NCBI GenBank assembly: GCA_947168585.1
Contig: CAMVMK010000019.1
Span: forward strand, 1 to 37,125
DNA length: 37,125 nt
Origin: an uncultured Fretibacterium sp.
GTDB taxonomy: Bacteria; Synergistota; Synergistia; Synergistales; Aminobacteriaceae
Direction: 5' to 3'
Below, one piece after another: positions 4,490 through 34,345 of the stretch. The notes below the pieces were generated by a model, which worked only from the letters and a program-made list of their open reading frames with translations, was not told the origin of the DNA and searched no databases. Position 1 is the first letter of the stretch; each line of letters opens with the position of its first letter. The translations under genes and the position numbers were made by a program.

Positions 4490-5182
4490 TTATTTGTCAA
4501 AGAAATTTTGAATAATCTCTTTAATTTCGGCGAGCGGCAAAGTTTTAAGCATATGCCCCTGAGGTTTGAGGGCTTCAATTTTTTCGATGCTTGCACTGTC
4601 AGTTTTTGCAGTCAAGAACATCACGGGTATTGAAGCTGTTGCGGGATTAGAGCGTATAGCTTCGAGGACTTGAGGGCCGTTCATTACGGGCATTTCGTAG
4701 TCGAGCAAAATTAAATCCGGCTTAGCTTTTTCGAGGATTTTCAGGGCATTAGCTCCGCCGTTTGCAGGTAAAACTTTGTAAGAAGTATTGAGACCTTCGC
4801 GCAAAGTTCTTATCATTACAGCGTCATCATCTACAAGTAAAATAGTCTGCATAGTTCCTCCGTTATTATTATTTTGTATAAATTCTAAAAGTTTTGAGCG
4901 GATTTCGTTGTTATTAAACGGTTTCACGAAAAAATCTGCTCCGGTAAATTTATTATTATTAATTTCAATTTGATTTCCGAGTAAAAAAATTTTTGTATTT
5001 TTAATTTTACTAATTTTAGCACCGTTTTCAAGACCTGCAAGATTTACCAAAATAATTTTAGGTATTGTAACATTATCGTTTGAGCGTGCACGTGTTATTT
5101 CAAAAGTATCTGCAAGACTTTTCATTAACATATCCGCACCCATTGAGGGCCTGTCGCTGATATACAAGATTTTTTCTTTCAT
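4490..5182 (-). CDS. Two-receiver response regulator (degenerate plus canonical REC)
   Basis: The gene encodes 230 residues. The first half (1-103) has a receiver-like fold but lacks the acidic pocket and phospho-acceptor, so it is a pseudo-receiver. After an Asn-rich linker (104-107), residues 111-230 form a canonical receiver: acidic pocket DDD (118-120), phospho-acceptor D161 in LLDYEMP, T191 and K213. No DNA-binding or enzymatic output domain is present, so it should work by protein contact, like CheY or Spo0F. It lies 15 bases downstream of the hybrid histidine kinase on the same strand and is its likely phosphorelay partner. A second ribosome binding site and ATG inside the gene could yield the canonical receiver alone. 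Confidence 0.8.
   Translation of the reverse strand: MKEKILYISDRPSMGADMLMKSLADTFEITRARSNDNVTIPKIILVNLAGLENGAKISKIKNTKIFLLGNQIEINNNKFTGADFFVKPFNNNEIRSKLLEFIQNNNNGGTMQTILLVDDDAVMIRTLREGLNTSYKVLPANGGANALKILEKAKPDLILLDYEMPVMNGPQVLEAIRSNPATASIPVMFLTAKTDSASIEKIEALKPQGHMLKTLPLAEIKEIIQNFFDK
4850..4861 (-). promoter_or_regulatory. Internal ribosome binding site and start codon in the response regulator
   Basis: GGAGG (4861-4857) lies four bases ahead of an in-frame ATG (4852-4850, Met111). Met111 falls exactly at the boundary between the pseudo-receiver and the canonical receiver. The Gly-Gly-Thr codons of the linker are what create the site. Initiation here would make a 120-residue single-receiver protein. 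Confidence 0.55.
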
Positions 5183-5197
5183 GTTGTTAATTCCTCA

Positions 5198-8100
5198 TTA
5201 TTTTAACGCTTCTTCAAGTCCTGCCCAGTCTGCACCGTCTGCACAAGTTGCAATTTGATTAAATTTCTCGGCTTCACTTTCAGGAATTTTGTATCCTCTA
5301 AGCATTGCAATTATTCCGTCAATAGAATCGCTGTCGAACATTGAAGCAAATTCTTTGATAGCCTCGTAAGCGTCATGAAGTTCATCAATAGGAATTTCAG
5401 GAGCGTCATCTTTTTTGTACAGCGGATCTAATTTTTCGATATAAGATTTGTAATCCATTAACAAAGTCGGCGTTAAATCTATAATGGACGTTACATCTTT
5501 TGCATTTCCGCAGTCTTCAAGATACATAGCCTGCGCTGAAAGTTCGCTTGCACCTACCAAACGCGCCGAACTTTTAAGAGCATGGACTTTAATAGTATAG
5601 CCTTTAACATCGTCTTCCGAAGCGTCTTCACCGTTGTTGATTGAGTTTAAGATACCGTTATAGAAATTTTGTATTTCGTTGAAATTATTATTAATTGAGT
5701 TATAGAACTGCTGTAAAGTTTTCTCTAAAATTTCTTCAGTTGCGCAGTTCTTAATAGCTTCGTAATAATCCAAGCCCGTTGTATGCGAGTAAAATTCTTC
5801 GAGCGGGGATTTAGTTTTCGCTGCTGTTTCCTGCTCTTCAGTTTCCTGTTCGATTACAACTTTGTCTTCAGGTAAATATTTCTTTAGAGTAGCTTCAAGA
5901 GTTTTGCTCTCAACGGGTTTTGAAAGATAATCCGTGAAGCCCTGATCCAAATATTTATTTCTTGCACCGCTCACAGCATCGGCGGTCAGACATATAACCG
6001 GCGTATTGTTGTTCATGCCGCCTTCTTGGACTTTGATTTTGTTCATAGTTTCAGTTCCGTCCATTTGAGGCATACGCTGATCCATTAAAATTAAGTCGTA
6101 TTTTGTATCCTGCGTGTGAATTAGTGCTTCTGCTCCGCTCGATGCCGTATCAAGCTGAATTTCTGTTTTTCTTAATAATCCTTGAATAACAGTTAAATTC
6201 ATGTCGGTATCATCAACGACTAAAATATGAGCCTCAGGGGCTTTGAAGAGTTCATGATAGGCTTTCATTTCGTGAACATACTCATCAAATTTTTGATGGA
6301 AATTGCCTATCGGGTCTTCACTGACAATCCTTTGAGGCAGGAAAATTATAAACGTTGAGCCTTGTCCGTAAACACTTTGGACTTCGATACTTCCTTTCAT
6401 TAATTCCAAAAGATTTTGAGTTATTGAAAGTCCTAAACCCGTACCCTCAACTGTATTATTTTTTACTAAATCGACACGTTCAAATTTCTTAAATAATTTC
6501 GGCAAATCTTCTTCTTTAATGCCTATGCCGGTATCGCTTACTCTGAAAACTAAATTAATATGTCCGCGTCCGACTTTATCGTAAATTTTTTCGCCTGAAA
6601 CTGTCAAAGAAACGCTGCCTTCATGAGTATATTTAACGGCGTTATTTAGTATATTTGTAACGACCTGACGCACCCGGACTTCATCGCCGTATAGACCGTC
6701 AGGCAAGGTCTCATCAACTTTAACATTAAATTGTAAATCTTTCTGACGCGCCTTAAATACAATCATGTTAGTAACGTCATTCAAGACTGAACTCAATTTG
6801 TAATCACTCTCGGCAATTTCCATTTTACCGGCTTCAATTTTTGAAAAGTCTAAAATGTCGTTGATTATCGATAAAAGATTTTTTCCTGCGCTCTCAACGT
6901 TACGGGCATAAGTTGTAATGCTGTCGTTATCGCTTTCGCGGATAATCATCTCATTCATTCCTAAAACTGCATTTATAGGCGTTCGAATTTCGTGGGACAT
7001 ATTCGCTAAAAATTCACTCTTTGCACTGTTAGCCTGCCTCGCCTGTTGCATTGCTGTCTGAGCTAAATCGAGAGCTTCTTCAAGCTGTTCGCGGCGTTCT
7101 TCCTGTTCTCTATGAAGTCTTGTAATATCCGAGACCATTGCAATATAAAATCCCGGATTTATAGCATAAAAATTAAATTGTTTGTAGTAAATTTTATTTT
7201 CAATTTCGCAGACAAGATTAACTTCATAAAGTTCGTTCTTTTGCGTCCCGAACGCTATAGCGTCAAGAGTTAAAGCCTTAGACATTTCTTTAACCTGGTC
7301 TTCTGTACCGTGCAGAACGGGCAAAATTTCTTCATTTATATAAGATGTGAAATTTTTGTGCATTTTTTGAGGCAAGATACTGCCTTCAGGTAAATCATAA
7401 TTAGCTGTAATATGATAATGTCCGATAGCTAAATATGCAATCATCTCAAATTGACGCACTAAAATTTTATCTACAATAGTTTGATAAACTTTTGAATTAT
7501 TGCACTCTCTTTCAGTTATAAAAGCTATAACATGGCCGTTTATAGGGCTTTGAGTCATGCTCGCTGAAATTTCAACGTAACAAATTGCTCCGTTCTCTCG
7601 TCTCGATAATAAAACCTGATGGACATTAACTCTTCCGTTTATATAACAATCTAAAAGATTATCGATATTATATAATTGTATAAATTTTTGACGCTCGAGA
7701 TAATTTATATAATGCTTAGAGCGTGCTCCTATCATCTGTGAATAACTTTTTTGCCCCTCATCGGTCTTGAATAAATCGCGCCCCTGAATTTCCTCGACTT
7801 CATCAATCGTTAAATCTATTCTGAACATTCCGAGCGTGAATTTATCCTGATGATAAAAATTTTTGCCGATGTTGTCGTAAGTTGTACGGATTTTTTTCTC
7901 GTATTTTTTAATTTTGGAAATGTCAGCGAATGTTAAATATAAATAATTTTCGTCAGCAATCGTAACAAAAGCATAATGAACGTTGCACCATATAATATGA
8001 TTATTTGCGGTAATCTGCCTAATTTGAATGTCGCGGGATTTGTTGGGGGCTTCGTGATGTTCGATGACGTATTGAACTAAAGGCCGGTCATCGGGGTAAA

Positions 8101-8338
8101 TAATTTCGCTGAAGTCGCCGGTTTCGTTGTAACGTTTGCTGCCCTCGCGTGTATCTCCCATCATTGCGGCGTACTCGGGCGAGATAAAAACAGCTTCGTG
8201 TTTGCCGTCATCGTTAATATGAATTAAAATAGCTTTGTTTCCTAATTGTTTTATAGCGTTTATAAAATTTTGCCGTTCATTTTGCTGAGACATTGCCGAC
8301 TGAGTTTCCTCCTCGAAATTTTTATTCTTATCGTCCAC
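5198..8338 (-). CDS. Cytosolic hybrid sensor histidine kinase with REC and HPt domains
   Basis: This 1046-residue protein has no membrane segments. The order is PAS-like sensing region (about 30-145), further PAS-like segments (160-280 and 300-405), coiled coil (about 405-440), HisKA with phospho-acceptor H449 in NMSHEIRTP, HATPase with N box near N566, DTGIGI (602-607) and GTGLGLS (632-638), receiver with DD 709-710 and D753 in LMDQRMP, and C-terminal HPt with H919 in VHALKSSAR. It is a complete His-Asp-His relay in one chain, able to pass phosphate to the two-receiver protein downstream. The GTG start at 8338 lies five bases after the aminotransferase stop with no clear ribosome binding site. 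Coupling is likely, or use of the ATG at Met16, which follows GAGGAGG. Confidence 0.88.
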   Translation of the reverse strand: MDDKNKNFEEETQSAMSQQNERQNFINAIKQLGNKAILIHINDDGKHEAVFISPEYAAMMGDTREGSKRYNETGDFSEIIYPDDRPLVQYVIEHHEAPNKSRDIQIRQITANNHIIWCNVHYAFVTIADENYLYLTFADISKIKKYEKKIRTTYDNIGKNFYHQDKFTLGMFRIDLTIDEVEEIQGRDLFKTDEGQKSYSQMIGARSKHYINYLERQKFIQLYNIDNLLDCYINGRVNVHQVLLSRRENGAICYVEISASMTQSPINGHVIAFITERECNNSKVYQTIVDKILVRQFEMIAYLAIGHYHITANYDLPEGSILPQKMHKNFTSYINEEILPVLHGTEDQVKEMSKALTLDAIAFGTQKNELYEVNLVCEIENKIYYKQFNFYAINPGFYIAMVSDITRLHREQEERREQLEEALDLAQTAMQQARQANSAKSEFLANMSHEIRTPINAVLGMNEMIIRESDNDSITTYARNVESAGKNLLSIINDILDFSKIEAGKMEIAESDYKLSSVLNDVTNMIVFKARQKDLQFNVKVDETLPDGLYGDEVRVRQVVTNILNNAVKYTHEGSVSLTVSGEKIYDKVGRGHINLVFRVSDTGIGIKEEDLPKLFKKFERVDLVKNNTVEGTGLGLSITQNLLELMKGSIEVQSVYGQGSTFIIFLPQRIVSEDPIGNFHQKFDEYVHEMKAYHELFKAPEAHILVVDDTDMNLTVIQGLLRKTEIQLDTASSGAEALIHTQDTKYDLILMDQRMPQMDGTETMNKIKVQEGGMNNNTPVICLTADAVSGARNKYLDQGFTDYLSKPVESKTLEATLKKYLPEDKVVIEQETEEQETAAKTKSPLEEFYSHTTGLDYYEAIKNCATEEILEKTLQQFYNSINNNFNEIQNFYNGILNSINNGEDASEDDVKGYTIKVHALKSSARLVGASELSAQAMYLEDCGNAKDVTSIIDLTPTLLMDYKSYIEKLDPLYKKDDAPEIPIDELHDAYEAIKEFASMFDSDSIDGIIAMLRGYKIPESEAEKFNQIATCADGADWAGLEEALK

Positions 8339-11978: not shown

Positions 11979-12175
11979 TCACAAACTTAAAATTATTGCT
12001 TTTTTAATATCGCCGCGTGAAGTTACGATTTCATAGCCGTTTTTCAGCATTTTATCTTTAAGAGAAATGAGATACTAGCACTTTCTTGATTTTATTGTCG
12101 TAAAGTTTACAAGTATCAGCCGAAGCAGACTAAACAAACGCAAAAATTAAAACGATATAAAATAAAAATTTTCAT
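11979..12175 (-). pseudogene. Remnant of a small secreted protein gene
   Basis: An ATG (12175-12173) opens a hydrophobic, signal-peptide-like start MKIFILY. The frame breaks at once, but continues in other frames as SADTCKLYDNKIKKVLVS and then KMLKNGYEIVTSRGDIKKA, ending at TGA 11981-11979. At least two frame changes and internal stops are needed to join these pieces, so it is decayed. No family was recognised. It follows the exported SH3-like protein on the same strand. Confidence 0.5.
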
Positions 12176-12192
12176 AATAAAAAATCTATCTA

Positions 12193-13020
12193 TTATTTTT
12201 TATACCGCGAAATTAAAGATTTTATTTCTGAAGGCTTTAATTTTCTGACATTAACAAACTGTTTTGAAATCGCATAATAAGGTACGGTTTTCAATGAATT
12301 ATTTACAATTCTTCCTGCAACTTCATACCAGCCTTTATTATTTCTTTCTTCGATATTAACGAGTAAACGGTCGCCTTTAGACCTGCTGACTTGGAATTTA
12401 ACTTGACCGTCGGGAGCAAATTCACGGACGTTAACTTTTTCGCCCATAACTTCGCCGATATATAAATCGGCATAAAGACCAAAAAGCATTCTCATTTTCG
12501 ATGTTTGATTTTCTAATAACGAATAACTTATTGATTTTATTATGCCGTTTTCTACTGAAAATGTAAGCAGTCCGCCTCCGTCAGATTCTTCAAATTGTGC
12601 AACATGATGCATTATAGAAGAATTGCCGTAAATATGTTCTTTACCGAAAAAGTTTTCTACTTTGCTGAACGGCGCGCCGACTTTAATTCCATTCGTGAAA
12701 GTTAATTCTCCGCTGCTTGTAGAAAAATCTGCGATAAAACTATTTGACCAATTTTTGCTGCGGTATTTGCGGATTAAAACGTAATAATCATCATACCACG
12801 CTCTTGCGTAGACTGTTTCATCGCCGAGCATTTCATTTTTTACAAATTCAATATCCTGCAGATTATATTCTCCGCTCCAGCTTATTTGATTTGCAATTTT
12901 CTCAAGACTTTCATAAAAAATATTAAAATTTCTTTCATGTTCTTCATATGAAGAGAGGGATAACGCCGGAGAAACTGTGAAAAATATTAAAACTACAGAA
13001 AGTAAAAATTTTTTACTCAT
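12193..13020 (-). CDS. Exported protein with C-terminal SH3-like domain
   Basis: The gene encodes 275 residues. Signal peptide residues 1-21 (MSKKFLLSVVLIFF core, cleavage near ALS) imply a periplasmic or envelope location. The middle region (25-185) is unrecognised. Residues about 190-250 look like a bacterial SH3 domain: VNVREFAPDGQVKF, a basic turn, then KGWYEVAG. SH3b domains often bind peptidoglycan or peptide stems. The remnant gene at 11979-12175 follows, and the citrate-carrier fusion gene lies on the other side of a heptad hairpin. Its role is not known. Confidence 0.65.
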   Translation of the reverse strand: MSKKFLLSVVLIFFTVSPALSLSSYEEHERNFNIFYESLEKIANQISWSGEYNLQDIEFVKNEMLGDETVYARAWYDDYYVLIRKYRSKNWSNSFIADFSTSSGELTFTNGIKVGAPFSKVENFFGKEHIYGNSSIMHHVAQFEESDGGGLLTFSVENGIIKSISYSLLENQTSKMRMLFGLYADLYIGEVMGEKVNVREFAPDGQVKFQVSRSKGDRLLVNIEERNNKGWYEVAGRIVNNSLKTVPYYAISKQFVNVRKLKPSEIKSLISRYKK

Positions 13021-13044
13021 AAAAATCTCTCCTTAATAAAAAAT

Positions 13045-13088
13045 AATTAGGAGTTAGAAAAATAATTTCTACTTCCTAACTCCTAATT
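13045..13088 (-). terminator. Heptad inverted repeat forming a terminator-like hairpin
   Basis: Perfect 13-base arms AATTAGGAGTTAG / CTAACTCCTAATT (13045-13057 and 13076-13088) with an 18-base loop. On the minus strand a T-rich stretch follows. It lies between the stop of the carrier fusion (13099) and the start of the SH3 protein (13020), and is built from two heptad repeats in opposite orientation. Confidence 0.55.
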
Positions 13089-13098
13089 TCTAATTAAT

Positions 13099-15387
13099 TT
13101 ACAGCGGAGTAACTCCGAGCAGTATGCAGGCGGCTATAGAGAGAATACTTACACACCAAATCCAAGGAAGCGAGTATTTAATGTGTTCGCCTACATCAAT
13201 TTCAAGAAGTCCTAAACCTAAATACATTGCAGGCGATAACGGCGAAATCATTACTCCAACATTTTCTGCAACGAGTAAGACGCAGGCAACGTCCATAGGA
13301 TTTACGCCGAACTGCGAGGCTATTCCTACAACAACAGGCAATAAACCAAAATAGAAGCTGTCTGTGCCTAAGCACATAATCAAAGGCACCGCGAAACATG
13401 CAACTATAAAATGAGTATAGCGGCCTAAATCCGGCGGAATTACCGTAACTGCTGCCGAAGCCATAGCGTTTAACATTCCTGTACCGCTCAAAACTCCCGT
13501 AAAAATTCCTGCCGCAAATAACGTAACTACCATCGACATAGCAGCAACGCCGTAATTTTTGAGTTTTGCGTTTTGTTCTTTAAGCGATTTAATATTAAAC
13601 GGAAGTGAGAGAGCAAGCGCAATCATGAAAACATAAGCGTTATTAAATTTGCCTAACATTAATGTCGCAATTACTGCAATTACAAGAATTAAATTGTATG
13701 TCTGCAGCATTCCCGAAACTTTCGGGGCTTCGGCTGACGCTTTAGATACGGCTTCTTCAGCGGTGTCATCAGCAACAAGTCCGAGTTTTTTAATGCGCCG
13801 TTTTTGAATACCGCTGAGAACAAAAGCAACTATAAATGTAACAACAAGCATTGTCCCCTGTACCGGCAGCAATCTTTGCCAAAGGTTATTAGGGTCTGTC
13901 TCAAGAACTGTTGCCGCTCTGATAGTCGGGCCTCCCCAAGGACATACGTTCATAACTCCGATAGCTACGCAGATTAAAAGCATCAACGACCTGTTATCCA
14001 TTTTTAATTTCTTGAATAACGGGAGCATTGCTGTAATCGTGATAATAAATGTTGTTGCTCCTGCTCCGTCAAGATGTCCAATTATACCAACAGCGGCTGT
14101 CGCAAGCATTACCAAAGTTACATTAGTTCCGGCCTTTTTAATCAGGAAATTTACAACAGGGTCAAAAACTCCCTGATCGCTCATCAGCGAAAAGAACGAA
14201 ATCGAGAACACAAAAAGCGAAACTGTTGATACCATTTTTGAAATTCCCGAAGCAGCAAATCTATTCACTACGAACGGGTCAAAACCTGCAACAAGAGCGG
14301 CAATAGTCGGAAGTATAATAAAAGCAACCGGAGGAATTACAACTTTTTTAATTAAGCAGAAAATTAAAACTGCTACCATCACGAAGCCTATTATTGCGAA
14401 TTTCGTCTGCGGTGCAGAAGCGGCCTTTTTAGTTTCTGTTTTTGCAGGCTTTAACATAGCCGTGAAAGTTTTGTATTCTTCTGCAAGTTCTTTGGAATAT
14501 TCTGAAGCATTTACGAAACTTTTGCGCTCGTCATAGCCGCCTTTTTCTAAAAATGCTGTCCATTCGTTTGTTTCTGAAACTTTCAAAATAGCTGCTTCAA
14601 GAGCGTCAATATCTGCCTGCGGAGTGCCTTTTTTTGCGAAAATTCCGCGCTCGGGGCCGATAACTGAATCAATCCCTAATTCTTTTGCACACTCAACGTT
14701 CGGATAAGATTTCATTCTGTTTTCTGAAAGTGCCAATAACGGGACAATATTTCCTGAAGCTATTAAATCTGAAATTTCGTCAGTTCCAGTTATCATTAAA
14801 TCTATATTTCCTTCGTTGAGAGCGAGAGTTAAGCCCGCTCCGGTCGGGTAACTGACTTCAAGAACGTTGAGACCTTCGAGAGCCTGCTTAAGTGAAAGAC
14901 CGTCAACTCCCGTACTTGTGAGCATACCTACACTGACGCTTGACGGGTGGGCTTTGATGTAATCTCTAAGCTGTGAGAAAGAATTATAGCCGCGTTCTTC
15001 CATAGTTTTTTTAGAAGCCGCGATTATATTCGTAGCGTTGACGAGCCTTGCAACGGGTACAAATTCGTCAAGAAATTTGAATTTCATTGCTCCGGAAATT
15101 TCCTGAATTAAAAGGCTTTGAGTTCCTAATAAAAATATTGAACCGTCAGCAGGTCTGTCTTTGACGTAAGCCGCGCCGTTAGCACCGTTGCCGCCTGTAA
15201 CGTTGAGAATTTCGACAGTTTTTCCCAACTTTTTTTCAAGCAGAGGAGCAAGAGTGCGTAAAGTTGAATCAGCACCGCCGCCCTCGCCCCACGGGCATAC
15301 GATAGTGATTTTCCCGTCGGCAAACGCCGGAAGACACAGCGATAACGCAAGAAGAGCCGCTAAAAAAATGTATGCAAATTTTTTCAC
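13099..15387 (-). CDS. Fusion of TctC/Bug-type solute-binding protein with CitMHS-type citrate carrier
   Basis: The gene encodes 762 residues. A signal peptide (1-23, ending AFA) leads into a periplasmic binding domain of the tripartite tricarboxylate receptor type (about 24-312): IVCPWGEGGGADSTLR, a NVTGGNGANGA loop and a ligand-side GVDGLSLKQAL. A charged Ala/Lys linker (313-329) joins it to about ten or more membrane segments (330-762) of CitMHS type: GHLDGAGATTF, NVCPWGGPTIRAATV, LGTDSFYFGLLP and ISPLSPAMYLGLGL. CitMHS proteins move metal-citrate with protons. TctC domains normally serve separate TctA/TctB permeases, so this chain appears to carry its own ligand-capture domain. There is no frameshift or internal start at the junction. 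Confidence 0.85.
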   Translation of the reverse strand: MKKFAYIFLAALLALSLCLPAFADGKITIVCPWGEGGGADSTLRTLAPLLEKKLGKTVEILNVTGGNGANGAAYVKDRPADGSIFLLGTQSLLIQEISGAMKFKFLDEFVPVARLVNATNIIAASKKTMEERGYNSFSQLRDYIKAHPSSVSVGMLTSTGVDGLSLKQALEGLNVLEVSYPTGAGLTLALNEGNIDLMITGTDEISDLIASGNIVPLLALSENRMKSYPNVECAKELGIDSVIGPERGIFAKKGTPQADIDALEAAILKVSETNEWTAFLEKGGYDERKSFVNASEYSKELAEEYKTFTAMLKPAKTETKKAASAPQTKFAIIGFVMVAVLIFCLIKKVVIPPVAFIILPTIAALVAGFDPFVVNRFAASGISKMVSTVSLFVFSISFFSLMSDQGVFDPVVNFLIKKAGTNVTLVMLATAAVGIIGHLDGAGATTFIITITAMLPLFKKLKMDNRSLMLLICVAIGVMNVCPWGGPTIRAATVLETDPNNLWQRLLPVQGTMLVVTFIVAFVLSGIQKRRIKKLGLVADDTAEEAVSKASAEAPKVSGMLQTYNLILVIAVIATLMLGKFNNAYVFMIALALSLPFNIKSLKEQNAKLKNYGVAAMSMVVTLFAAGIFTGVLSGTGMLNAMASAAVTVIPPDLGRYTHFIVACFAVPLIMCLGTDSFYFGLLPVVVGIASQFGVNPMDVACVLLVAENVGVMISPLSPAMYLGLGLLEIDVGEHIKYSLPWIWCVSILSIAACILLGVTPL

Positions 15388-15466
15388 GTGAAAATACCTC
15401 CTGTAATTAAAATTTTTATTTCTTATTTTGGAAATTAATTAAGCTAATTATAACAAAGGTTAGGGG

Positions 15467-15492
15467 ATTTAATGCAGTAATCTGCATTAAAT
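15467..15492. repeat. 26-base palindrome, copy 2
   Basis: Exact reverse complement of 11549-11574 (11-base arms, loop TAAT). It sits inside a run of heptads, as if inserted between GTTAGGGG and TAGAGGTGAGGGG. Confidence 0.85.
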
Positions 15493-15652
15493 TAGAGGTG
15501 AGGGGTGAGAATTTTTTTGCCCATACGCATGGAGAGAAAAAATAAATTTTTGTTTCGTGATTTTTTAGGAGAAAGACACGAAAAACAAGTTAAAAATTTT
15601 TCTAAAAATTTTTTCGTGAGACTTTGCTATGAGAAATTAAAACTAAGATTTT

Positions 15653-15676
15653 TGTAATAATAAATGTAATAATAAA
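15653..15676 (+). repeat. Tandem pair of TGTAATAATAAA
   Basis: Two perfect 12-base copies, four bases ahead of the hairpin at 15681. This is the same layout as at 11910-11966. Confidence 0.8.
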
Positions 15677-15680
15677 AATA

Positions 15681-15705
15681 AATTCCCGACTTTCGCTCGG
15701 GAATT
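15681..15705 (-). terminator. Probable ftsH terminator
   Basis: Nine-base arms AATTCCCGA / TCGGGAATT with a seven-base loop, T-rich on both sides. It lies 85 bases after the ftsH stop and would work on the minus strand; the symmetry allows both directions. Confidence 0.65.
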
Positions 15706-15789
15706 TTTCTTGCAAATATTATAACATAAAACCTGCTCGTCCGACAGGCGGGAATAAATTTTTGTTCAGAGTTAAAAAATTTTTTCTTT

Positions 15790-17676
15790 TCACTCCTCAC
15801 TCCTCTTTTCTTTATTGACGATTGCTTGAATTTCATCGCTGTTAATTACTTCTTTTTTCTGGAGAGTTTCAGCGACTTCATGCAAAACTTTTTCGTGTTC
15901 TTTGAGAATATTAGACGCCTGCTCTTGAGCTTCCGTTACGAGCCTTTTAATTTCAGCGTCAATTTTTTCAGCCGTAGCCTCGCCCGCATCTTCGCGGATT
16001 TGAACAGCACCGCCCAAATACATCATAGTAGGAGCAGCGTAACGTACAGGGCCTAATTTTTTCGACATTCCAAACTCTATTACCATACGACGGGCAGTTT
16101 CTGTAGCGCGTTCTAAATCGTTTGACGCTCCTGTTGTAGGCTCGTCAAAAACTAAAAGTTCAGCCGCCCGGCCTCCTAACATTACGGCCATACGTGTTTT
16201 TAATTCGTTCTCCGTAACTAAATACTGGTCTTCCGTAGGCATTTGCATAGTGTAACCTAACGCGCCTTTAGTAGTCGGAATAATGCTGACTTTGTGAACA
16301 GGGTCAGAGCCCGGCAGATAACAGGCAACGAGAGCATGTCCTGTTTCATGGTAAGCGACTTTTTTGCGGATTTCGGGAGTTAAAGGCGTTTTTCTTTGAA
16401 GACCTGCGACAACTCTCTCAATAGCTAAATCAAAATCGTTAGTTGAAACGCTGTCGGCTTTTCGTCTTGCGGCTAACAAAGCTGCTTCATTAGCGATATT
16501 AGCGAGGTCTGCTCCTGAAAATCCCGGAGTAACTTTTGCAATTTCTCTCAAATTAACTTCTTGGGCAAGAGGAACTTTTTTAGTATGGATTTTCAAAATT
16601 TCCTCGCGTCCTTCTTCGGTCGGCAAAACGACTTGAATTTGACGGTCAAAGCGTCCCGGCCTCATTAAAGCCTGGTCTAAAATTTCCGGCCTGTTAGTCG
16701 CGCCCATTATGACAATGCCGTCATTTTCTTCAAAGCCGTCCATCTCGGCTAATAATTGATTTAGAGTATTTTCCTGTTCGGAATTTCCGTTATAAACGTT
16801 CATTCTTGACTGTCCTATAGCGTCAATTTCGTCCATGAAAATAATACACGGAGCTTTTTTCTTGGCCTGGTCAAATAAATCGCGTACTCTTGCCGCTCCG
16901 ACACCTACGAACATTTCAACAAAACTTGAACCCGTTATAAAGAAAAACGGAACACCGGCCTCGCCTGCCGTAGCCTTAGCAAGCAAAGTTTTTCCCGTGC
17001 CTGGAGGGCCTACAAGCAAAACTCCGCGAGGTAATTTAGCTCCGAATTTGTCAAAACGTTTAGGGTCTTTAAGAAAATCAATAATTTCACGCAGTTCGAC
17101 TTCAGCTTCACCTGCGCCGCCGATGTCGCTGAAATGAACGCCCGTTAATTCTCCCTGAAGTTCTTTAGCCCGTGAGCGTCCAAAAGAGAAAATGCCTCCG
17201 ATACCGCCTCCGCCGCCTGCACCGCTGATATTTCTGAACATGAAATACCATAAAATTAATAAAGGCAGCAGCGGCAGTAAAATTCCCATTAATAAATCTA
17301 AAATCGTATCGCGCTGAGCAATTCCGCCGAATTTTATATCAGAGTTTGAAAGTTTCATGATTAAATCGGGGTCATCGAGCCTTACGACACTTTTAATATT
17401 TCCTTGAGGTTTAGTTTTTTTGTTTGAGAAAATAACGCCGCCGATTATGGGTCTTTTATCGGGGCTTGCTGCTCCTTCTTTGAGGGCATAAGTTATGCGT
17501 GTTTCGGAGATGTCGACATTTTCGATAATATTTTTATCTAAGTCTTCTAAAAATTCGCTGTAAGAGACTTCTCCCTGACGTTCCGCGTAAGGTTTATAAA
17601 TATATTCAGAGAAAAGCCACGTAGCTACTAATGCTCCTAAGAAAAACCAAACTGAAAATTTTTGTCCTTTATTCAT
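15790..17676 (-). CDS. ftsH: ATP-dependent zinc metalloprotease FtsH
   Basis: This 628-residue membrane-anchored AAA+ protease degrades misfolded membrane proteins and short-lived regulators. Two membrane segments (about 8-24 and 128-147) flank a small periplasmic domain. A Gly-rich linker follows, then the AAA module: Walker A GPPGTGKT (223-230, K229), Walker B IIFMDEID (D282, E283), arginine fingers in MRPGRFDR (R339, R342). The zinc site is HETGH (443-447) with third ligand D520 in GASNDLE. The last codons (KRSEE, stop) are written by a heptad repeat, so the C-terminal tail may be repeat-derived. It ends the block running from cmk. Confidence 0.96.
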
Positions 17677-17721
17677 TCGTTTTTACTTCCTAAATTTTAA
17701 TTTTACAATATTTTTTACTTC

Positions 17722-18192
17722 CTACTTCCTAATTCCTAACTGATTAAAAAATGCTCTGCCGCTTTCACTGCGCTGTTTGCGTTCTTTGAGCCTGAAAAAT
17801 TCTTCGTCAATTTTATCTCTTTCAGATTTATTGACGGGCATGAGACTTAGAAAATTATCTAACTTATTTTCTAAATCTTCAATTTCTTTTCTTCCCGGAG
17901 GAGCAGTCCGACCGATATTTTTTAGGTTCATTACAACTAAATCCGCGATTAAAACGGCCATATCGTGAAGTTCTCTGTCGGCCTGAGAGTTATTATTTTC
18001 GTCTCTGTCTTCATCATCATCATCGAAATTATAATTTTTAACTTGGGTAGCGAAACATAAAAATCCTACGGCCATAGCCAGCCACGCAGCACCGGCGGCT
18101 ATATTATCAATATAAAACATATAGCCTGCGAATATTGCCGTAATAAGTCCTGCGCAGAATAAAGCCCAGCGGAAAAATTTTTCAATAGTCAT
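17722..18192 (-). CDS. Small two-segment membrane protein, unknown function
   Basis: The gene encodes 156 residues. Two hydrophobic segments (about 8-26 and 30-47) are followed by an acidic Asp/Asn-rich loop (54-69) and a helical cytosolic tail. It sits directly after gmk with no gap, in the place where rpoZ often lies, but it does not resemble the omega subunit. Its final residues QLGIRK and stop are encoded by heptad repeat sequence at 17722-17741. Confidence 0.6.
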   Translation of the reverse strand: MTIEKFFRWALFCAGLITAIFAGYMFYIDNIAAGAAWLAMAVGFLCFATQVKNYNFDDDDEDRDENNNSQADRELHDMAVLIADLVVMNLKNIGRTAPPGRKEIEDLENKLDNFLSLMPVNKSERDKIDEEFFRLKERKQRSESGRAFFNQLGIRK

Positions 18193-25426: not shown

Positions 25427-26176
25427 CTAAATTAAGGCTTTCCACATTAAGTCTTTTATAAAATCAACGCCGTATAAATCTTTCAAAATTTTTTGATTTA
25501 ATTCTTTGCCGTTAAAAATTAGTCCGCCGTTTTTAATTGCTATATAAAAATCTGAGTAAGAACTTGCAATATTTATATCATGAACGGCGGCGATAATATT
25601 TCGTCCTTCGCTTGAAAGTTTTTTTAAGAGAGCGAAAACTTGTGCAGTTTTGTCCGGGTCTAATGAGGCTGTAGGTTCGTCAAGCAAAATTATTTCCGTG
25701 TCTTGAGCAACAGCGGCGGCAATGAAAACTAACTGCCTTTCGCCGTCAGATAAAGTCATGATGTCGCGGCTCAATAAATTTGAAATTTTTAATAATTCTG
25801 CGGCCGTTTCGATTAATTCTTGGTCATGATTTTTCAACCGTCCGAAAAGCCCCGTAAAAGGCAGACGGCCAAGAGCAATAATTTCCCGGACGCTGTAAGA
25901 ATATGACGGACGAAAATTTTTATTGCTCATAACGAAACTTAAAACACGCGAAAAATTTTTCCGTGAGATTTTTTTAATGTCGCGGTCATTTAAGAAAACT
26001 TTACCCGAATAATTTTTTTCAAGCCCCGATAAAACTCTTAATAAAGAAGTTTTCCCTGCACCGTTAGGCCCGATTAACGAGACTAAGCCGCATGGAATTT
26101 CGAGCGAAATATTTTTCAGAATTAATTTTTTTTCATAACTTAAAGCAAGATTTTCAAGCCTGTATAAAATTTTCAT
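25427..26176 (-). CDS. FecE/BtuD-type ABC transporter ATPase
   Basis: The gene encodes 249 residues. Walker A GPNGAGKTS (36-44), signature LSDGERQ (one residue off the usual LSGGQ), Walker B IILLDEPTAS, and a switch histidine in AVHDINIA. It should power uptake with the binding protein 21 bases downstream. Its ATG overlaps the stop of the restriction-modification gene as ATGA, a spot where the permease gene would usually be. The TAG stop is followed at once by a heptad repeat that supplies the AGGAG of the next gene. Confidence 0.9.
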   Translation of the reverse strand: MKILYRLENLALSYEKKLILKNISLEIPCGLVSLIGPNGAGKTSLLRVLSGLEKNYSGKVFLNDRDIKKISRKNFSRVLSFVMSNKNFRPSYSYSVREIIALGRLPFTGLFGRLKNHDQELIETAAELLKISNLLSRDIMTLSDGERQLVFIAAAVAQDTEIILLDEPTASLDPDKTAQVFALLKKLSSEGRNIIAAVHDINIASSYSDFYIAIKNGGLIFNGKELNQKILKDLYGVDFIKDLMWKALI

Positions 26177-29142
26177 GAAGACAATTTTATATCAATATAT
26201 TGCTTAAGAATATCATGCTCAAGATTTTTTATATAATCCTCCATGAATTTATAATCTGGCTGTCCGGAGTCGTCAACAGGGAGAAAAATCTTACTTCGTC
26301 TAAGTCGAGTAAGTGTTGCTCCATTACCGCCCCAGCTGAAAATTGACAAAGTTTTTTTCAAGACTGGTAAGAAAAATTTCGCATTGTAAGCATTTAACTT
26401 TTTATTTCGCAGTATCTGAATATTTTGTCCAGTGTAAAATTTTTCAGGTTGATAGAATGCCGTTTGTGTATCAAGACCCACTACGATACAATTTCCATCG
26501 TTAAGTTTATAGTTTTTTTGTTTACAAACGAAATCACTTAATCCGTTATTGATATCGCTCCTTGTGATATAAGGATAAACACCGCTACTAACATTTAACT
26601 TATTTTTATCAATACCATTGACTGTGGCGTGTATCTCAAAAATTTCATTAAGGTTAAATTTTTCCCAATGCCACCCATCAAGATTCATTTTTTTTTTAGT
26701 AGTGAAATTTTTTAATCTCGGCGAAATAAAATCAAAATAATCTTGAAGCATTTTTTGTTCGCACTGTCTGACGTAATTTTCCATGAATTTATAATCAGGC
26801 TGTCCGGAGGCATCAACAGGAAGCTGAATTATTTGACGTTTCATTCTTGTTTCATTAAATTTATAGCCGTAAGTATATTTATTCTTTTGAGTCAAGATAG
26901 CCTGTTTCAAGAAGAGATAGACATATTTATTGCCTTCGTAAGTCTTCAGCTTGAAGCGTTTAACATCGTCAGAAAATAAACATTCGTAAGGATGATAAAA
27001 ATTTTCGACAATGCTTCCATTGTAATTAACACCTAAAACATTGCTGTCTTCTGAAACATTTGTATTTGATACAAATTCTGTTATGCCGTTGTTTGAATCC
27101 GAAGCTCCTATAAAAGGCTTATCACCTGCGGTCATATCTTCTTTCCTTAAACGTTTTCCGGAGGAAATCGAAAATAAATCTCCTATGGCAAATTTTCCCC
27201 AATGCCGCCCATCAAGCGTAAGATTTTTTTTTTCGTTTTGCTGCTCATTTTCATAATTAAATAAATATCCGCGCCCGTGAGCAATCATGTTAAATTCAAA
27301 CGTCAAATAATCAGCAATACTCCTTTTGAAATCGTCTTCGCCAGGCAATTCGTCATTATAGTAATAAAACGAATGCAGCCATTCATCAGACGCCTCAGCG
27401 TGAGTTTCGACCATAAAATTTGAAGGACAGTCTTTAATTTTTCCCTGCCAGCAGTCAAGAAGATATTGTTTTCTGTCTTTCGCCCTTTCAGTCTCTACGA
27501 GGCCGATGTGCATTTTGACTTCCCAGCCGTCGTCTTCAAAATTAATAAATTTTGAAATTTTTTCAGGCTGATGAGGTTCGCCGGCCGTAAAAACTGCAAT
27601 ACATGGAACAGTGCCGACAGGATAAAACGTACTTTTATTCAGACTTATGACACCTTCGAGAGTATGATGTTTAAGAATTTCAGCCTTTTTGAATTTATCT
27701 TCTTTATTCTTGCCAGTCATCGTTGACACGGGAACAATTACGGCAACACGGCCGCCCTTAAGAACGCTGTCAAGCAGATTTTCAATAAACGCAAGTTCAG
27801 ATAAATTTGATGTTTCTTTATTCTTGGCCTGCGAGTAAGGAGGATTCATAAAGCCGACAGTAATTCCGTTGAGCTGTAAGTCTGACGGATTAAAGCTGAA
27901 AAAATCATCGCAGATTAAATTGCTCCGCCCGTCGCCGTGTAAAATCATGCTTGTTGTTGCCATTGAGAACATATCAGGACGGAGTTCAATACCGAAAATC
28001 TGATTTTTCTTTATCCTCGATTTTTCAGATTCATTTTTTGCAGTGCGTAACATTCGGTGCATACCCGCGATTAAAAATCCGCCTGTTCCGCAGCACGGAT
28101 CAAAAATTACATCATCGGGTTTCAGGTCAACTAAGTCGCAGAATAATTCCGTAATATGTTTCGGAGTTATAACAATTCCCAAAGACTGGCCGTCGCCGCC
28201 GGTGTAGCGTATAAATTCCATGTAAAACCGACCTATGTAGTCTTCTCCCGATGACTCGATATTTAATTTAGAATAGACGTGCCTGTTAATGAACTCTGTA
28301 AAATATTTCAGGGGTGTTTTTGCTAAAGACGGATTAATTCTGTTCAAGATAGGAGTGTTTTTAATAAAATTAAACTGCGTCATAATCTGCTCTTTTTTTA
28401 CTTGATCCGCCACTTTTGCACGCGATAAACTTGTCTGCAGAGCCTTATAAAGTTTTTCGCCGTCAGTTTCAACTTCATCGCCGTTTAATTGTTCGAGTTT
28501 GAAACCGTGTTTTTGTTCACTCAAGGCCAAGAGTATTGCGGCAACAACTAAGGGATTTTCATGTGCGCCTAAATTTCCGTAATTTCTTAAATCTTCGTGA
28601 AGATTTTCCGCGATTTTCCCGATATTTTCGTTTTCAATTTCTTCGGGCAATTCTTCTTTCAAGATTACTTTTTTATAATAACTTTCAATATTTTCGGGCG
28701 AAAAATTTTCAAAAGTTTCAATTTCTGAAAGTTCGATAATTTTATTTTCACTGACGAAAAGCGGCTTTAATATGTGATGTTTAGGTTCGCCTGCACAGCC
28801 GAAAGCAAAAATTTTTTTGAAAGAACTGCCCCCTAAAATTTTCTTTGAGTAAAATAATGCGCCGTTGAGAGCGTAATCTTTCGTGGCGTTAATCTTGAGT
28901 GAAATTTTCCCGTCATCATCACGCAGACATAATTTATTTTTGTCAGCTTTATCCTCAATGACGATAACAAAATCTTTTACGACTGCTATAAAATCCGGCG
29001 CACCTTTTTCACCTGTCTGGCTTTTTGAGGCAGAACTTAAAGCGTCAGAAATTTCTTTAATGCTTGAGCCTTGATAACCGGCTTGAATATCCGCTTCTTT
29101 TAATAAATCATTTATATATAAATCAAACGTAGATTCTTTCAT
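26173..29142 (-). CDS. Single-chain restriction-modification enzyme with N6-adenine methylase and two recognition domains
   Basis: The start ATG 29142-29140 follows AGGAG eight to nine bases away (989 residues). Order: N-terminal PD-ExK-like nuclease (D50 in GAPDF, E63-D-K65), helical region, gamma-class adenine methylase with motif I DPCCGTGGF (348-356) and NPPY (433-436), then two HsdS-like target recognition domains (about 648-800 and 825-975). Each ends in a near-identical unit, LPVDxSGQPDYKFMExY. This fits Type IIG/IIB-like (BcgI-like) enzymes that cut and methylate from one polypeptide with a split target. It lies 16 bases after the HD-GYP gene and overlaps the ABC ATPase start. Confidence 0.85.
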   Translation of the reverse strand: MKESTFDLYINDLLKEADIQAGYQGSSIKEISDALSSASKSQTGEKGAPDFIAVVKDFVIVIEDKADKNKLCLRDDDGKISLKINATKDYALNGALFYSKKILGGSSFKKIFAFGCAGEPKHHILKPLFVSENKIIELSEIETFENFSPENIESYYKKVILKEELPEEIENENIGKIAENLHEDLRNYGNLGAHENPLVVAAILLALSEQKHGFKLEQLNGDEVETDGEKLYKALQTSLSRAKVADQVKKEQIMTQFNFIKNTPILNRINPSLAKTPLKYFTEFINRHVYSKLNIESSGEDYIGRFYMEFIRYTGGDGQSLGIVITPKHITELFCDLVDLKPDDVIFDPCCGTGGFLIAGMHRMLRTAKNESEKSRIKKNQIFGIELRPDMFSMATTSMILHGDGRSNLICDDFFSFNPSDLQLNGITVGFMNPPYSQAKNKETSNLSELAFIENLLDSVLKGGRVAVIVPVSTMTGKNKEDKFKKAEILKHHTLEGVISLNKSTFYPVGTVPCIAVFTAGEPHQPEKISKFINFEDDGWEVKMHIGLVETERAKDRKQYLLDCWQGKIKDCPSNFMVETHAEASDEWLHSFYYYNDELPGEDDFKRSIADYLTFEFNMIAHGRGYLFNYENEQQNEKKNLTLDGRHWGKFAIGDLFSISSGKRLRKEDMTAGDKPFIGASDSNNGITEFVSNTNVSEDSNVLGVNYNGSIVENFYHPYECLFSDDVKRFKLKTYEGNKYVYLFLKQAILTQKNKYTYGYKFNETRMKRQIIQLPVDASGQPDYKFMENYVRQCEQKMLQDYFDFISPRLKNFTTKKKMNLDGWHWEKFNLNEIFEIHATVNGIDKNKLNVSSGVYPYITRSDINNGLSDFVCKQKNYKLNDGNCIVVGLDTQTAFYQPEKFYTGQNIQILRNKKLNAYNAKFFLPVLKKTLSIFSWGGNGATLTRLRRSKIFLPVDDSGQPDYKFMEDYIKNLEHDILKQYIDIKLSS

Positions 29143-29158
29143 TAAAATTTCTCCTGTT

Positions 29159-32100
29159 TTAATTTTTAACGTTCTCAATATTTTCAGTGCTTCCGCCGCC
29201 TTTATCGTCAGGAGCTCTGAAATTGCCTCTTGCTACGAGCCTCAAGAAAGCGTTTACAACGTCCGTAGTTAATTGAGTCCCGGAACTTTCTTTCATGATT
29301 GAAACAACTTTTTCAAAATTCATTCGCGGTCTATAAGGCCGTGTTGAATACATAGCGTCGAAAGTATCAGCTACAGCGATAATCTGCGCAACTCTCGGAA
29401 TATCTTTACCCGTAAGACCTTTGGGGTAACCTTTTCCGTCCGGGCGTTCATGATGACAGCCTGCTCCCGTTGCGAGTTCCGGCATTATGCTGATTTCTTT
29501 TAGAGCCTCGTAGCCTAAAGTCGTGTGAGATTTCATAATTTCAAATTCTTCATCAGTTAATTTTCCAGGCTTATTAAGAACGCTCGAGGGTATTCCGATT
29601 TTTCCGATGTCGTGAAGCAAAGCAATTCTGTAACATTTTTCGACAGCATCTCTATCGTAGCCGAGTTCTTTAGCAAGCATGGCCGAATAATTAGCTACGC
29701 GCATTGAGTGGCCGTTAGTGTATTCGTCTTTCATATCTATGACTTTTGCGAACGCTTCTGTAATTTCTTTAATAAAAGTCATGTTCTCACGGTTTCGCTG
29801 CTCAAGGATACGGGTTTTCCTGTTGACATAATAGCGCAGACTTTCTTCTAATACAAATGACGATAACAAAGCCGTGATTATGAAAAACCAAGTTTCTTCA
29901 TAAAATGCTTTTTCTTTAGTGATTTTTATAGAAAATTTCTTAGTGCTGTTTTCCATTAAGTCCATGAGATTTATAACAAAATTATAAGTTCCTCCGTGTA
30001 AATTCGTGTAGTCTATAGGAACGAGCTCGCTGCGTTTTACGGGAGGATTTTCTTTTTTCTCGAAGCCCTCAAGCTGCCATGAAACCATAGGATTATTTAA
30101 CGAATAATTAAAAACGAAGCTGTGCACTGTGAGTTTATGAGTGCTTGCAGGAATTTCAAAATTTCCGTCAGGGTCAGCAAAAATTCTTTCTCCGTCAATA
30201 TCAATGAAAGGCACGGAGACTTTTAAGTTAGAAATATTCCTGGAATTTTTGTCGATATTATCCTTTACTACGCCCGTCAAACCTGCAATATAAAGTTCGC
30301 CGTTGTCTGTGAGTTCGCTGTAAGCGTTAGCAGTAGGGACGCAGGAAAGTCCGTTATAAATTCCGTAATGAACAGGCTCAATATGTTCATTTTTAATTAA
30401 ATCATCGACAGCAATAACATAAAGCCCGTCGCTTGATAAAATCCATGCTTGGCCTGAAGAATTTTCATAAATATCATAATTATTTAAGTAAGGAAAATTT
30501 TTTATTGTCGTTAATTTATAATTTTCGTCCATGAAAGCTATAGAATTGCTCGTAACGATCCAATAAATTTTTTTATTTCTCGAACGTTTAACTCTCATGA
30601 CTATATCCGAAGTTAAGCCCTCTCCGGAACTTATTTTTTTCGTGCCGTTTTTTCCTAAAATATAAATTCCTCCGCCGTCAGAACCAAGAATATAATCATG
30701 ATTGAAGCCCTCGCAGACCGTTAAAATTTCGGTGTTGTCGATGTCAAATTCAGCTCCGTAGCTTTTTATAATTTTGTCGCCCTCAATGATATGAACTCCG
30801 CCGGTAACCGCAGCAATCATTGAGCCGTTTTCAAGTTCATTAACAACTCTGACTCTTTCAGAAAAAAGCCCGTCTTTTGTAGTAAAACTTAATAATTCGG
30901 CTTTATCGTGATCATAGCGCAAAAGACCGTATTTTCTCCATGTTGAAATCCATAGACGTCCTTTACTGTCGCGGATTATTGAGCGTATTCTAACGCCTTT
31001 CAAATAGTCGATTAAATCTCTTGTCTCTAAATCAACTCCCGAAGCAGTTTCGGCTTTAATTAACGGCAGAGATTCAATTTTTTTTTCGTTTTCAAGAACA
31101 GTAAGCCCGGAATCTGTAGCTATAAATAATCTTTTATCTAACATACAAGTCGAATTAACGACAGCTGAGGGTAAATTATAATGTTCGTACAAATTTACAA
31201 ATTGATTAGGTACGATCTTCATTATTCCCTGACGGCTCGAAGTGAACCACAAATTTCCCTCGTAGTCAGTCATAACGTGGCCGATAGAATTTTCCATAGG
31301 AATATCTTCGATTTTATGGAAGCCCTTAGAGTCTATATAGCCTATGCCATTGCCTGCACAGATCCAAATTTTTCCGTCGATATATTCAAATTTTTCTATG
31401 TAAGATAAAGGCGAAATGTCGCGGATACTTAAATTATCGAAATTATTTTTAATGCTTCCGTAATAAACGTCAGATTTTTCTGTCCCTAAATAAACTTCAC
31501 CCGGGTGTTTAGGGTCGGGCATGATACTGATTATTCTTTTAACTTTGCAGTCTTTCTGGCTCAAAAAATCAAAAACTTTTCCGTTCTTTAACGTAAATAA
31601 ATCGCCGGTCTGGGTAAGCCCGTAAATTAATCCGTCTTGGCCTAAACGAATATCGCGGATATAAACCTCGCTTAGTCTTTCGTCTTTAATGTCCGTCAAA
31701 TTCATTTCCCGGTCTATCATTACTATTCCGGAAGTTGTAGCGGCGTAAATTATTCTATTATTATCTTCAGCGATTGCTATAACGCTCGAAGATTTCAAGC
31801 CTTCAGATTTATTCCAGTGTTTAACTTCATCGCGCTTAAATAGAAACAGTCCAGAGTCGCCTGTTCCGATCCATAAACCGTCGAGGCTGTCTAAATATAA
31901 ACTTTTTACGCTGCCTATTCCCGTGTTTGAAGATACACGCTCAAAAGTATTTCCGTCATAGCGTGTTAAACCTCCGTAGCTTCCGATCCATATAAAACCC
32001 TCGCTTGTTTCGGCTATAGCGTTTGCTTCAGAAGTCGGAAGACCTTTAGTGTTATCATAAAGAACGGCGGAAAAGCCCTCGCTTTGACGTGTAGGGTCGA

Positions 32101-32357: not shown

Positions 32358-32882
32358 TTGAAAAGGCCTAACCCTTTAGTCAAGACTTTATGTAATCTTG
32401 ATTTAATCATTGCGGCAATAGCTTTGATAATCTTGACCCTCGTAACGAGTGCGGGAGTTTTCAAGCGTTACGTAATGAAAGACCCGATTTTATGGCAGGA
32501 AGAAATCTGCGCTTTCTGTCAAGTCTGGCTGATTTACATGGGAGCGAGCGTAGCTTTCAGGACTGGAAGCCACGTAGCTATCGAAATGTTAATCGATGCT
32601 TTGCCGGAAAAACTTCAAAGATTTATGGGCTATGTTATTGATTTAATAGTTCTGTTCGTTTTAGTTTTTCTGCTTGTAAAATCGCAGGCTTATGTTGCTC
32701 AGGTTTTCGGACGTTCAGGAAGACCCACGCCGATTTTGAGAATACCTTACACTTATATTTACGGCGTTGCTCCTTACGGCTGCGGATTGATGATAATCAG
32801 TTATTTTGTTTCAAGATACGCGCCGCTTTTCGTGAAGTCAATCGAAATGCCCGAAAGAAAAGATGAGGAGGCGGAAGACTAA
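32358..32882 (+). CDS. TRAP transporter small permease subunit (DctQ family)
   Basis: The gene encodes 174 residues from a TTG start, after AGAGGTGG six bases upstream. Four membrane helices are visible (about 14-32, 52-68, 90-110, 133-150), with the family motif WQEEICAFCQVWLIYMGASVAFR. DctQ joins with DctM to import carboxylates driven by sodium. It overlaps the large-subunit gene by one base (TAATG). No DctP binding-protein gene is adjacent. Confidence 0.92.
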   Translation: MKRPNPLVKTLCNLDLIIAAIALIILTLVTSAGVFKRYVMKDPILWQEEICAFCQVWLIYMGASVAFRTGSHVAIEMLIDALPEKLQRFMGYVIDLIVLFVLVFLLVKSQAYVAQVFGRSGRPTPILRIPYTYIYGVAPYGCGLMIISYFVSRYAPLFVKSIEMPERKDEEAED

Positions 32883-34345
32883 TGACTACAGCATTAATTT
32901 TAAGCATAATCGGAGCTGTTGCTCTTGCGGTTTTATTGAGGGTCTTAAAACTTCCGTATATTTTTATAGTTCTTGCGGCTTTAACTTTATTAATCGGCGT
33001 AAATATTCAATGGGTAAAGCCTTATCTTGAAACTTTAGGCAAGCAGTGGGGAACGAATACAGTTTTAGGAATTTCAGCAGCGGCTATGATGGTGCTTTTA
33101 TTCTTAAAAGTTCCTGTATTTGTTTCAGTTTTCGGCGGCTCATTAATTTATTTCCTGTTTAATCCCGGGATAAATCAAATTATTTTCGGACAGCGGTCAG
33201 TAATCGGCACGGAAAATCCGTCTCTTTTAGCAATTCCGTTTTTTGTCTGCGCAGGAACTTTCATGAATTATTCCGGCGTTACGAATAGGATTATGAATTT
33301 CTGTTCGGCAATTACGGGACGTATGCCCGGCGGATTGGCTCAAGTCAATGTTTTATTATCGACATTAATGGGGGGACTTTCAGGCTCGAACTTAGCGGAC
33401 GCGGCAATGGAAGCTAAAATGTTAGTGCCGGAAATGGAGAAGCAGGGCTTTTCAAAAGAATTCAGCTCGGTTGTTACAGCAGCTTCAGCAATGATAACGC
33501 CGTTAATACCGCCCGGAATAGCTATGATTTTATACGGCTGTATAGCTGACGTTTCAATCGGAAAATTATTTATGTCGGGAATTACAGTCGGAGGTTCGCT
33601 GTGTATAGCTATGATGATTTTAGTTCATTTTATTTCTAAAAAGCGCGGCTATCTTCCGATCCGAAAAACTAAATTATCCGGCAAAGAATTTTGGGGACAT
33701 TTAAGACCTGCGTTATTGCCTTTGTGCCTGCCGATAATAATAATCGGAGGAATAAGGCTCGGAGTTTTCACGGCGACAGAAGCCGGAGCGATAGCAATTT
33801 TATACGCTATAGTTTTAGGTTTGATTTATAGAGAACTAAGCTTCAAAGGAATTTTGCAGGCCTGCAAAGAAACAGTATGCACGACCGGCGGAATTATGTT
33901 AATAGTTTCAGCGGCTTCAGTGTTTTCTTGGGTTTTGACGAAAGAAAGAATACCTCAGCAGCTTACGGAGTTTATAGTTTCAATATGCCCGAATAAATAT
34001 GCGTTTTTAATCGCGGTGAATATTTTTGTTTTAATAGTCGGAATGTTTATCGAGGGCAACGCTACGATGATAGTTTTAGTTCCTCTGCTTGCACCGATAG
34101 CAAAACAGTACGGCATTGACGAAATTCAATTCGCAATGATTTATATTTTCAATAACGCTATCGGAGCTTTATCGCCTCCTATGGGAACGCTAATGTTTGT
34201 AACGTGCTCAGTAACAGGATGTAAGACAAAAACTTTCATGAAAGAAGCAATCCCGTTCTATTTGCTGCTCGTTGCGTTGTTATTATTATTGACGTTTTGT
34301 CCGCCTGTAACTACGGCAATCGTAAAATTAACTTACGGCGGTTAA
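32882..34345 (+). CDS. TRAP transporter large permease subunit (DctM family)
   Basis: The gene encodes 487 residues. About 14 membrane segments. Family motifs include ENPSLLAIPFFVCAGTFM, GGLSGSNLADAAM, TPLIPPGIAMILYG, TEAGAIAILYA and NNAIGALSPPMGTLMFV. It is about 60 residues longer than the common form because of two extra N-terminal helices. The transported acid cannot be read from sequence. A large inverted repeat begins 25 bases after the stop. Confidence 0.93.
   Translation: MTTALILSIIGAVALAVLLRVLKLPYIFIVLAALTLLIGVNIQWVKPYLETLGKQWGTNTVLGISAAAMMVLLFLKVPVFVSVFGGSLIYFLFNPGINQIIFGQRSVIGTENPSLLAIPFFVCAGTFMNYSGVTNRIMNFCSAITGRMPGGLAQVNVLLSTLMGGLSGSNLADAAMEAKMLVPEMEKQGFSKEFSSVVTAASAMITPLIPPGIAMILYGCIADVSIGKLFMSGITVGGSLCIAMMILVHFISKKRGYLPIRKTKLSGKEFWGHLRPALLPLCLPIIIIGGIRLGVFTATEAGAIAILYAIVLGLIYRELSFKGILQACKETVCTTGGIMLIVSAASVFSWVLTKERIPQQLTEFIVSICPNKYAFLIAVNIFVLIVGMFIEGNATMIVLVPLLAPIAKQYGIDEIQFAMIYIFNNAIGALSPPMGTLMFVTCSVTGCKTKTFMKEAIPFYLLLVALLLLLTFCPPVTTAIVKLTYGG

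Follow-up and report, generated by a model that had tools for sequence, protein, structure and literature searches.

A single uninterrupted reading frame in an uncultured Fretibacterium sp. joins a secreted TctC/Bug-type receptor to a complete CitMHS carrier; the resultant protein probably works as a binding-protein-dependent secondary importer, with citrate or a closely related tricarboxylate as its substrate, and one chain would carry both the transporter and a receptor tethered outside the membrane. The gene lies on the minus strand at 13099-15387 of the whole stretch of DNA that was analysed (the window; 37,125 nt, assembly GCA_947168585.1, contig CAMVMK010000019.1). The ORF list and its translation give 762 codons from a GTG start, with the stop codon at 13099-13101 and none inside the frame, and a Shine-Dalgarno-like AGGAGGT is visible by eye 8 bases ahead of the GTG (15396-15402, minus strand).

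All the parts of the protein that follow are encoded on the minus strand. Residues 1-23 (MKKFAYIFLAALLALSLCLPAFA; 15319-15387) read by eye as a Sec type signal peptide for signal peptidase I, ending in AFA and without a lipobox; the other fused proteins in a 28-row alignment likewise open with signal-peptide-like stretches. The receptor occupies residues 24-312 (14452-15318), as assigned by PF03401 (TctC, residues 44-311, 61.9 bits against a Pfam cut-off of 27), by phmmer matches to solved TctC/Bug proteins and by a model with its fold match. Near its start, at residues 32-40 (15268-15294), the 28-protein alignment shows PWGEGGGAD, which corresponds to the ligand-pincer motif P-F-x-A-G-G-x-x-D described in PMC5812351; the proline, both glycines and the aspartate are kept, F is replaced by W and A by E, and the motif reads PWGAGGGSD in two of the 28 proteins. 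A 17 residue linker (313-329, KPAKTETKKAASAPQTK; 14401-14451), delimited by translation, alignment and pN/pS, leads to the carrier (330-762; 13102-14400), which was identified from Pfam, NCBIfam and comparison with stand-alone CitMHS proteins. The CitMHS Pfam model matches residues 345-707 (76.1 bits, cut-off 31.9) and the NCBIfam model TIGR00784 (citMHS) matches residues 330-759 (274.3 bits, cut-off 259.7), covering profile positions 2-427 of 431, so that this half is a full-length family member above the curated cut-off; it begins exactly where stand-alone CitMHS proteins do, with their usual first membrane helix. DctM matches the carrier weakly (35 bits, Pfam), as does DcuC, and TIGR00786 (dctM) scores 17.8 bits on the fused protein against an NCBIfam cut-off of 268. 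DctP and DctQ have no match in the fused protein in Pfam or NCBIfam, and no TctA or TctB was found within it or seen beside its gene. An earlier note on this DNA had read the frame as signal peptide, TctC/Bug receptor, linker and complete CitMHS in one 762 amino acid chain, and the searches of the two halves, both above their curated cut-offs, bear this out.

The same join is found elsewhere. Both halves stand in one frame with no stop inside in 32 of 43 genomes of the genus; 30 of these fusions are complete, those of G021 and G036 are cut by contig ends, and G017 carries two copies. The genus genomes lacking it are G002, G003, G008, G013, G016, G019, G023, G029, G034, G062 and G064. In a survey of the phylum (185 genomes, the best candidates, at most five, being scored in each), none of the 142 other genomes had the fusion at E <= 1e-60 among the matches listed; none of the frames behind the listed matches outside the genus is longer than 482 amino acids, which is too short for both halves. 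Beyond the phylum the search covered plasmids, of which 474 records matched part of the fused protein and none covered 80% of it. Within the 185 genomes searched the fusion is thus confined to one genus. The 27 related loci (L034-L060), which come largely from the same genomes as the G-labelled ones, belong to Synergistaceae/Synergistales/Fretibacterium MAGs, and 25 are named with goat, red deer, reindeer or sheep; most of the named relatives are ruminant-gut Synergistaceae.

The linker can be aligned across all 28 fused proteins. From 26 of the 28 coding sequences (L034 and L044 being left out) pN/pS was lowest in the carrier (0.14) and higher in the linker (0.23) and the receptor (0.27), values to be read with synonymous sites near saturation, and the fused gene is under purifying selection, the linker included. 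The window and its relatives are largely metagenome-assembled genomes, which would leave room for a sequencing or assembly artefact; with the join repeated in 32 of 43 genomes, the linker aligned and selection acting across the join, such an origin is so improbable as to be negligible. Sequencing error or a frameshift was rejected on the strength of the genome count, the 28-protein linker alignment and pN/pS across the join. The earlier note had named a stop or frameshift at about residues 313-330, or a fusion present in no other genome with two separate genes in close relatives, as what would overturn its reading; neither is what the survey and the aligned linker show.

In structural terms the receptor part of the model is fairly good, and its best fold matches are 2dvz, 6hke, 5oei and 2f5x (TM on target 0.82-0.86); the predicted fold of the receptor half is that of the Bug proteins. 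The alignment behind the models is shallow (27 rows at 73-83% identity), viral contigs yielded no further relatives with which to deepen it, and no solved structure matches the CitMHS profile by sequence. The AlphaFold carrier was unusable, with pLDDT mostly below 50 in the whole-protein model and a mean of 39.5 for the carrier alone, and docking and topology therefore have to be judged from sequence patterns. In ten stand-alone carriers the short tail at the N-terminus is free of K/R, and the first loop has one or two K/R in each of 11 carrier sequences, a pattern that fits a carrier N-terminus outside the membrane; with this orientation the receptor would need no extra helix to reach the outside.

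Two types can be told apart among the fused receptors, by positions 117, 120, 124, 158, 203 and 245; 14 are of type A (the window included) and 13 of type B. Applied to the carrier, the same criterion finds no position that separates them. In the model position 158 lies just before the helix at 161-169 and position 203 in the turn after the strand at 197-201. Ligand contact in TctC/Bug receptors is assigned to alpha5 and the beta7-alpha7 turn (PMC5812351), and by this mapping positions 158 and 203 would fall at ligand-contact places. On the receptor tree type B forms one clade (99/96); on the carrier tree it needs eight changes, with an AU p of 4.8e-75 (27 rows). After L055, the marker sites and their neighbours were removed, type B was still one clade (100/100) and the AU p on the carrier tree was 2e-4; the receptor pieces needed two and one changes and the carrier halves seven each. 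Across 12 loci, receptor distances follow neither those of the flanking asd/hom genes (rho -0.004, p 0.47) nor those of the carrier (0.03, p 0.34), and carrier distances weakly track the asd/hom flanks (0.35, p 0.058). The two halves are mismatched in some pairs of the same type too. All of these data come from draft or metagenome assemblies; the conflicting pairs have only about 81-87% carrier DNA identity, however, which makes simple assembly chimeras unlikely. Synonymous sites are also near saturation, and at fourfold sites this blurs any recombination breakpoints. Taken together, receptor and carrier conflict as if the receptor half had repeatedly been exchanged between fused genes. It is possible, if well short of probable, that this represents a further importer class, in which TctC cassettes of at least two ligand types are swapped by recombination onto a near-constant CitMHS and the receptor alone sets the substrate.

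The fused gene probably forms a transcription unit of its own, as judged from a hairpin-like repeat that follows ftsH, the upstream gene on the same strand (15790-17676, NCBIfam), and from the AGGAGGT that precedes the GTG. Downstream is a secreted-looking protein (12193-13020) with no Pfam match. Among the 27 loci no constant operon partner was found, and the fused gene was never seen next to citrate genes or in a citrate operon. A palindrome, ATTTAATGCAGATTACTGCATTAAAT, with 12-base arms lies about 80-105 bases before the start codon (window 15467-15492) and was not found upstream of other fusions; Rfam gave no match in 12000-18000 of the window. Elsewhere in the window are TRAP genes dctQ and dctM (32358-34345), with no DctP match among the window proteins scanned, followed by two SDF (DctA-type) carriers (34703-35941 and 36073-37101); a single 1001-aa frame with N-6 DNA methylase and type I specificity (Methylase_S) domains (26173-29178); and a 1046-aa hybrid histidine kinase with receiver and Hpt together with an adjoining response regulator (4490-8338).

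Free relatives of the receptor indicate where the fused half may have come from. The closest in the genus are 54-61% identical to it, and up to 62.5% over 288 residues, and on a receptor tree of 12 fused and 13 free proteins a single branch (100/100) parts the fused from the free; when three distant receptors were added the fused group needed two changes and was a single group in 41% of bootstraps, very long branches blurring its grouping there. TctB and/or TctA stand next to the free same-clade receptor at 17 of the 24 loci viewed (L061, L064, L067-L071, L073, L074, L076-L078, L080, L101, L104, L109 and L110). Some of the fetched stretches of free-receptor loci stop at contig ends; citD lies in the stretch of seven of these 17 loci and the whole of citDEF in five, and no cit genes occur in those of L061 (the tctCBA of the window's own genome), L071 or L080, all of which had room for them. 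At L068 citF and citD exceed their NCBIfam cut-offs and citE is below its own; TctB-TctA-CitE is visible at L103 and CitE at L102, the receptor frame having been filtered out in both; no TctBA is shown at L106, L107 or L108; and at L066 (G025) the receptor directly precedes citDEF without TctBA. Long TctC frames were seen at L064:3615-4805 (G036) and L066:3405-4577 (G025), of 397 and 391 aa, which seem to start with two tandem signal peptides and to carry a short remnant resembling a TctC N-terminus after the first.

The same pairing also exists as two genes. In G003, which has no fusion, a CitMHS gene is followed 18 bases later by a same-clade tctC, the pair occupying L062:5506-7806 at the place where relatives have tctCBA; the best TctA match of this genome, at 39%, is not an orthologue of the cognate one. 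The closest stand-alone carrier, from another family (G163), is 57% identical and has no receptor gene beside it. The fusion probably arose once, by a copy of a tctCBA-type receptor being set before a CitMHS gene.

For the substrate, the distribution of citrate lyase is informative. CitF was found in 38 of the 43 genus genomes, in 31 of 32 with the fusion and 7 of 11 without (Fisher p 0.011, not corrected for kinship). TIGR00784 is above cut-off in 31 of 43 genus genomes, and as a stand-alone match only in G003 and G033; the window's genome has the fused one only. Other CitMHS genes of the phylum adjoin citrate lyase genes, as citE-citF-CitMHS at L094 and CitMHS-citD at L100. In seven genomes with the fusion and CitF (G007, G012, G014, G015, G017, G020 and G035), neither a free same-clade receptor (next-best 26-32%) nor an orthologous cognate TctA (best 38-40%) was found; other TctA proteins are present in all of them. 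A 2HCT carrier occurs in G007 and G020 and a DASS carrier in G015; the remaining four have neither, and by eye no transporter gene lies beside their citDEF. G008 and G034 have CitF without the fusion or a free same-clade TctC. Besides the fusion, candidates for citrate carriage in the window's genome are its free tctCBA, a DASS gene and a 2HCT gene (G000:C85:41-1004) that is broken, being split over frames with a stop.

It may be that the importer works as proposed and carries another acid, such as aconitate, tricarballylate, citramalate, malate or similar. TctC/Bug proteins have a range of acid ligands (PMC5812351), the receptor model matches the malate-binding MatC (6hke) as well as it does others, and the stand-alone CitMHS relatives at L063 and L096 adjoin, by eye, CoA-transferase-like genes that suggest other substrates. 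Type B differs at six receptor positions, and with two receptor types some fusions could have a ligand other than citrate. However, the citrate lyase genes that accompany free receptors and the CitMHS genes at L094 and L100, together with the four genomes that combine fusion and CitF without another citrate-type TctC/TctA, 2HCT or DASS, make a different acid the less likely substrate, though one to be reckoned with. The case for citrate is stronger than it was in the earlier note, through the tctCBA operons, the citDEF neighbours and the CitMHS-tctC gene pair.

The seven genomes also bear on whether the fused receptor mainly serves a separate TctBA, with CitMHS as an anchor or an independent low-affinity carrier. 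Supplying TctA/TctB is a known role of TctC receptors (PMC5812351), and the window's genome and many relatives have a free tctCBA with a same-clade receptor; yet those seven keep the fusion without an orthologous TctA, and the carrier is the more conserved half (pN/pS 0.14 vs 0.27), unlike a mere anchor. We consider this arrangement improbable. CitMHS carriers are known to function on their own, and the receptor could instead be a regulatory or gating domain, a sensor or selectivity lid on a CitMHS, perhaps an exchanger or exporter, to which it delivers no substrate; this would agree with the stand-alone G163 carrier and with a receptor half that switches type while the carrier stays the same. 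The conserved pincer motif and the G003 gene pair speak against it, as does the precedent for delivery in TAXI-GltS (PMC12344293), itself partly based on modelling, and a gating role appears unlikely.

The importer remains the best reading of the fusion, as the earlier note had proposed, with transport itself argued from family and context. The receptor would fold outside the membrane and close around its ligand, citrate or a closely related tricarboxylate, possibly together with a bound metal ion; by swinging on the linker it would then pass the ligand to the carrier in its outward-facing state. Import with H+ or another cation, a coupling suggested by the families, would follow, probably through the elevator movement of the carrier's superfamily, and the imported citrate would be split inside by citrate lyase (CitDEF). 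In the rumen, a tethered receptor that captures its ligand with high affinity would help the cell to take up an acid that is scarce, and the fusion points to a way in which Synergistaceae there may scavenge citrate.

ABC importers with fused binding domains, of the GlnPQ and OpuA type, also tether a receptor to the membrane part; they differ from the fusion in being ATP-driven with an unrelated membrane part, and GlnPQ domains are only distant fold matches of the receptor model. TRAP systems (DctPQM) resemble it in receptor-fed secondary import and in the weak kinship of DctM to the carrier, and differ in having DctP, DctQ and another receptor family. With TctCBA the fusion shares the receptor family, the pincer motif and the likely ligand class (PMC5812351); it has CitMHS in place of the TctB/TctA membrane subunits. 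Known CitMHS symporters (TIGR00784, PF03600) are stand-alone, whereas in the fusion the first helix comes after a secreted receptor, in the same order in all 28 aligned proteins. No described transporter of this pairing was known to the earlier note, and no TctC-CitMHS transporter was found in the open PMC literature.

The nearest parallel is TAXI-GltS (PMC12344293, 2025), a precedent absent from the earlier note and represented by BP0403-GltS of Bordetella pertussis and a fused TAXI-GltS of Lachnospiraceae; before it, according to its authors, TRAP and TTT were the sole secondary carriers known with a binding protein, and their Discussion holds that further classes would test whether the elevator mechanism permits binding-protein dependence. 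If our reading is right, a receptor-fed CitMHS would be such a class, as a single polypeptide of fixed stoichiometry without a small TctB/DctQ-like subunit, and the split relative in G003 and the receptor-free relative in G163 would form a natural comparison set. Both systems join a solute-binding protein, by operon or fusion, to a usually lone secondary carrier for which an elevator is proposed; TAXI-GltS (PMC12344293) has a TAXI receptor, an ESS/GltS carrier and glutamate as substrate in other phyla, and the fusion a TctC/Bug receptor, a CitMHS carrier and, as proposed here, citrate. The working principle is thus known from TAXI-GltS, and it is the pairing of receptor and carrier that looks new.
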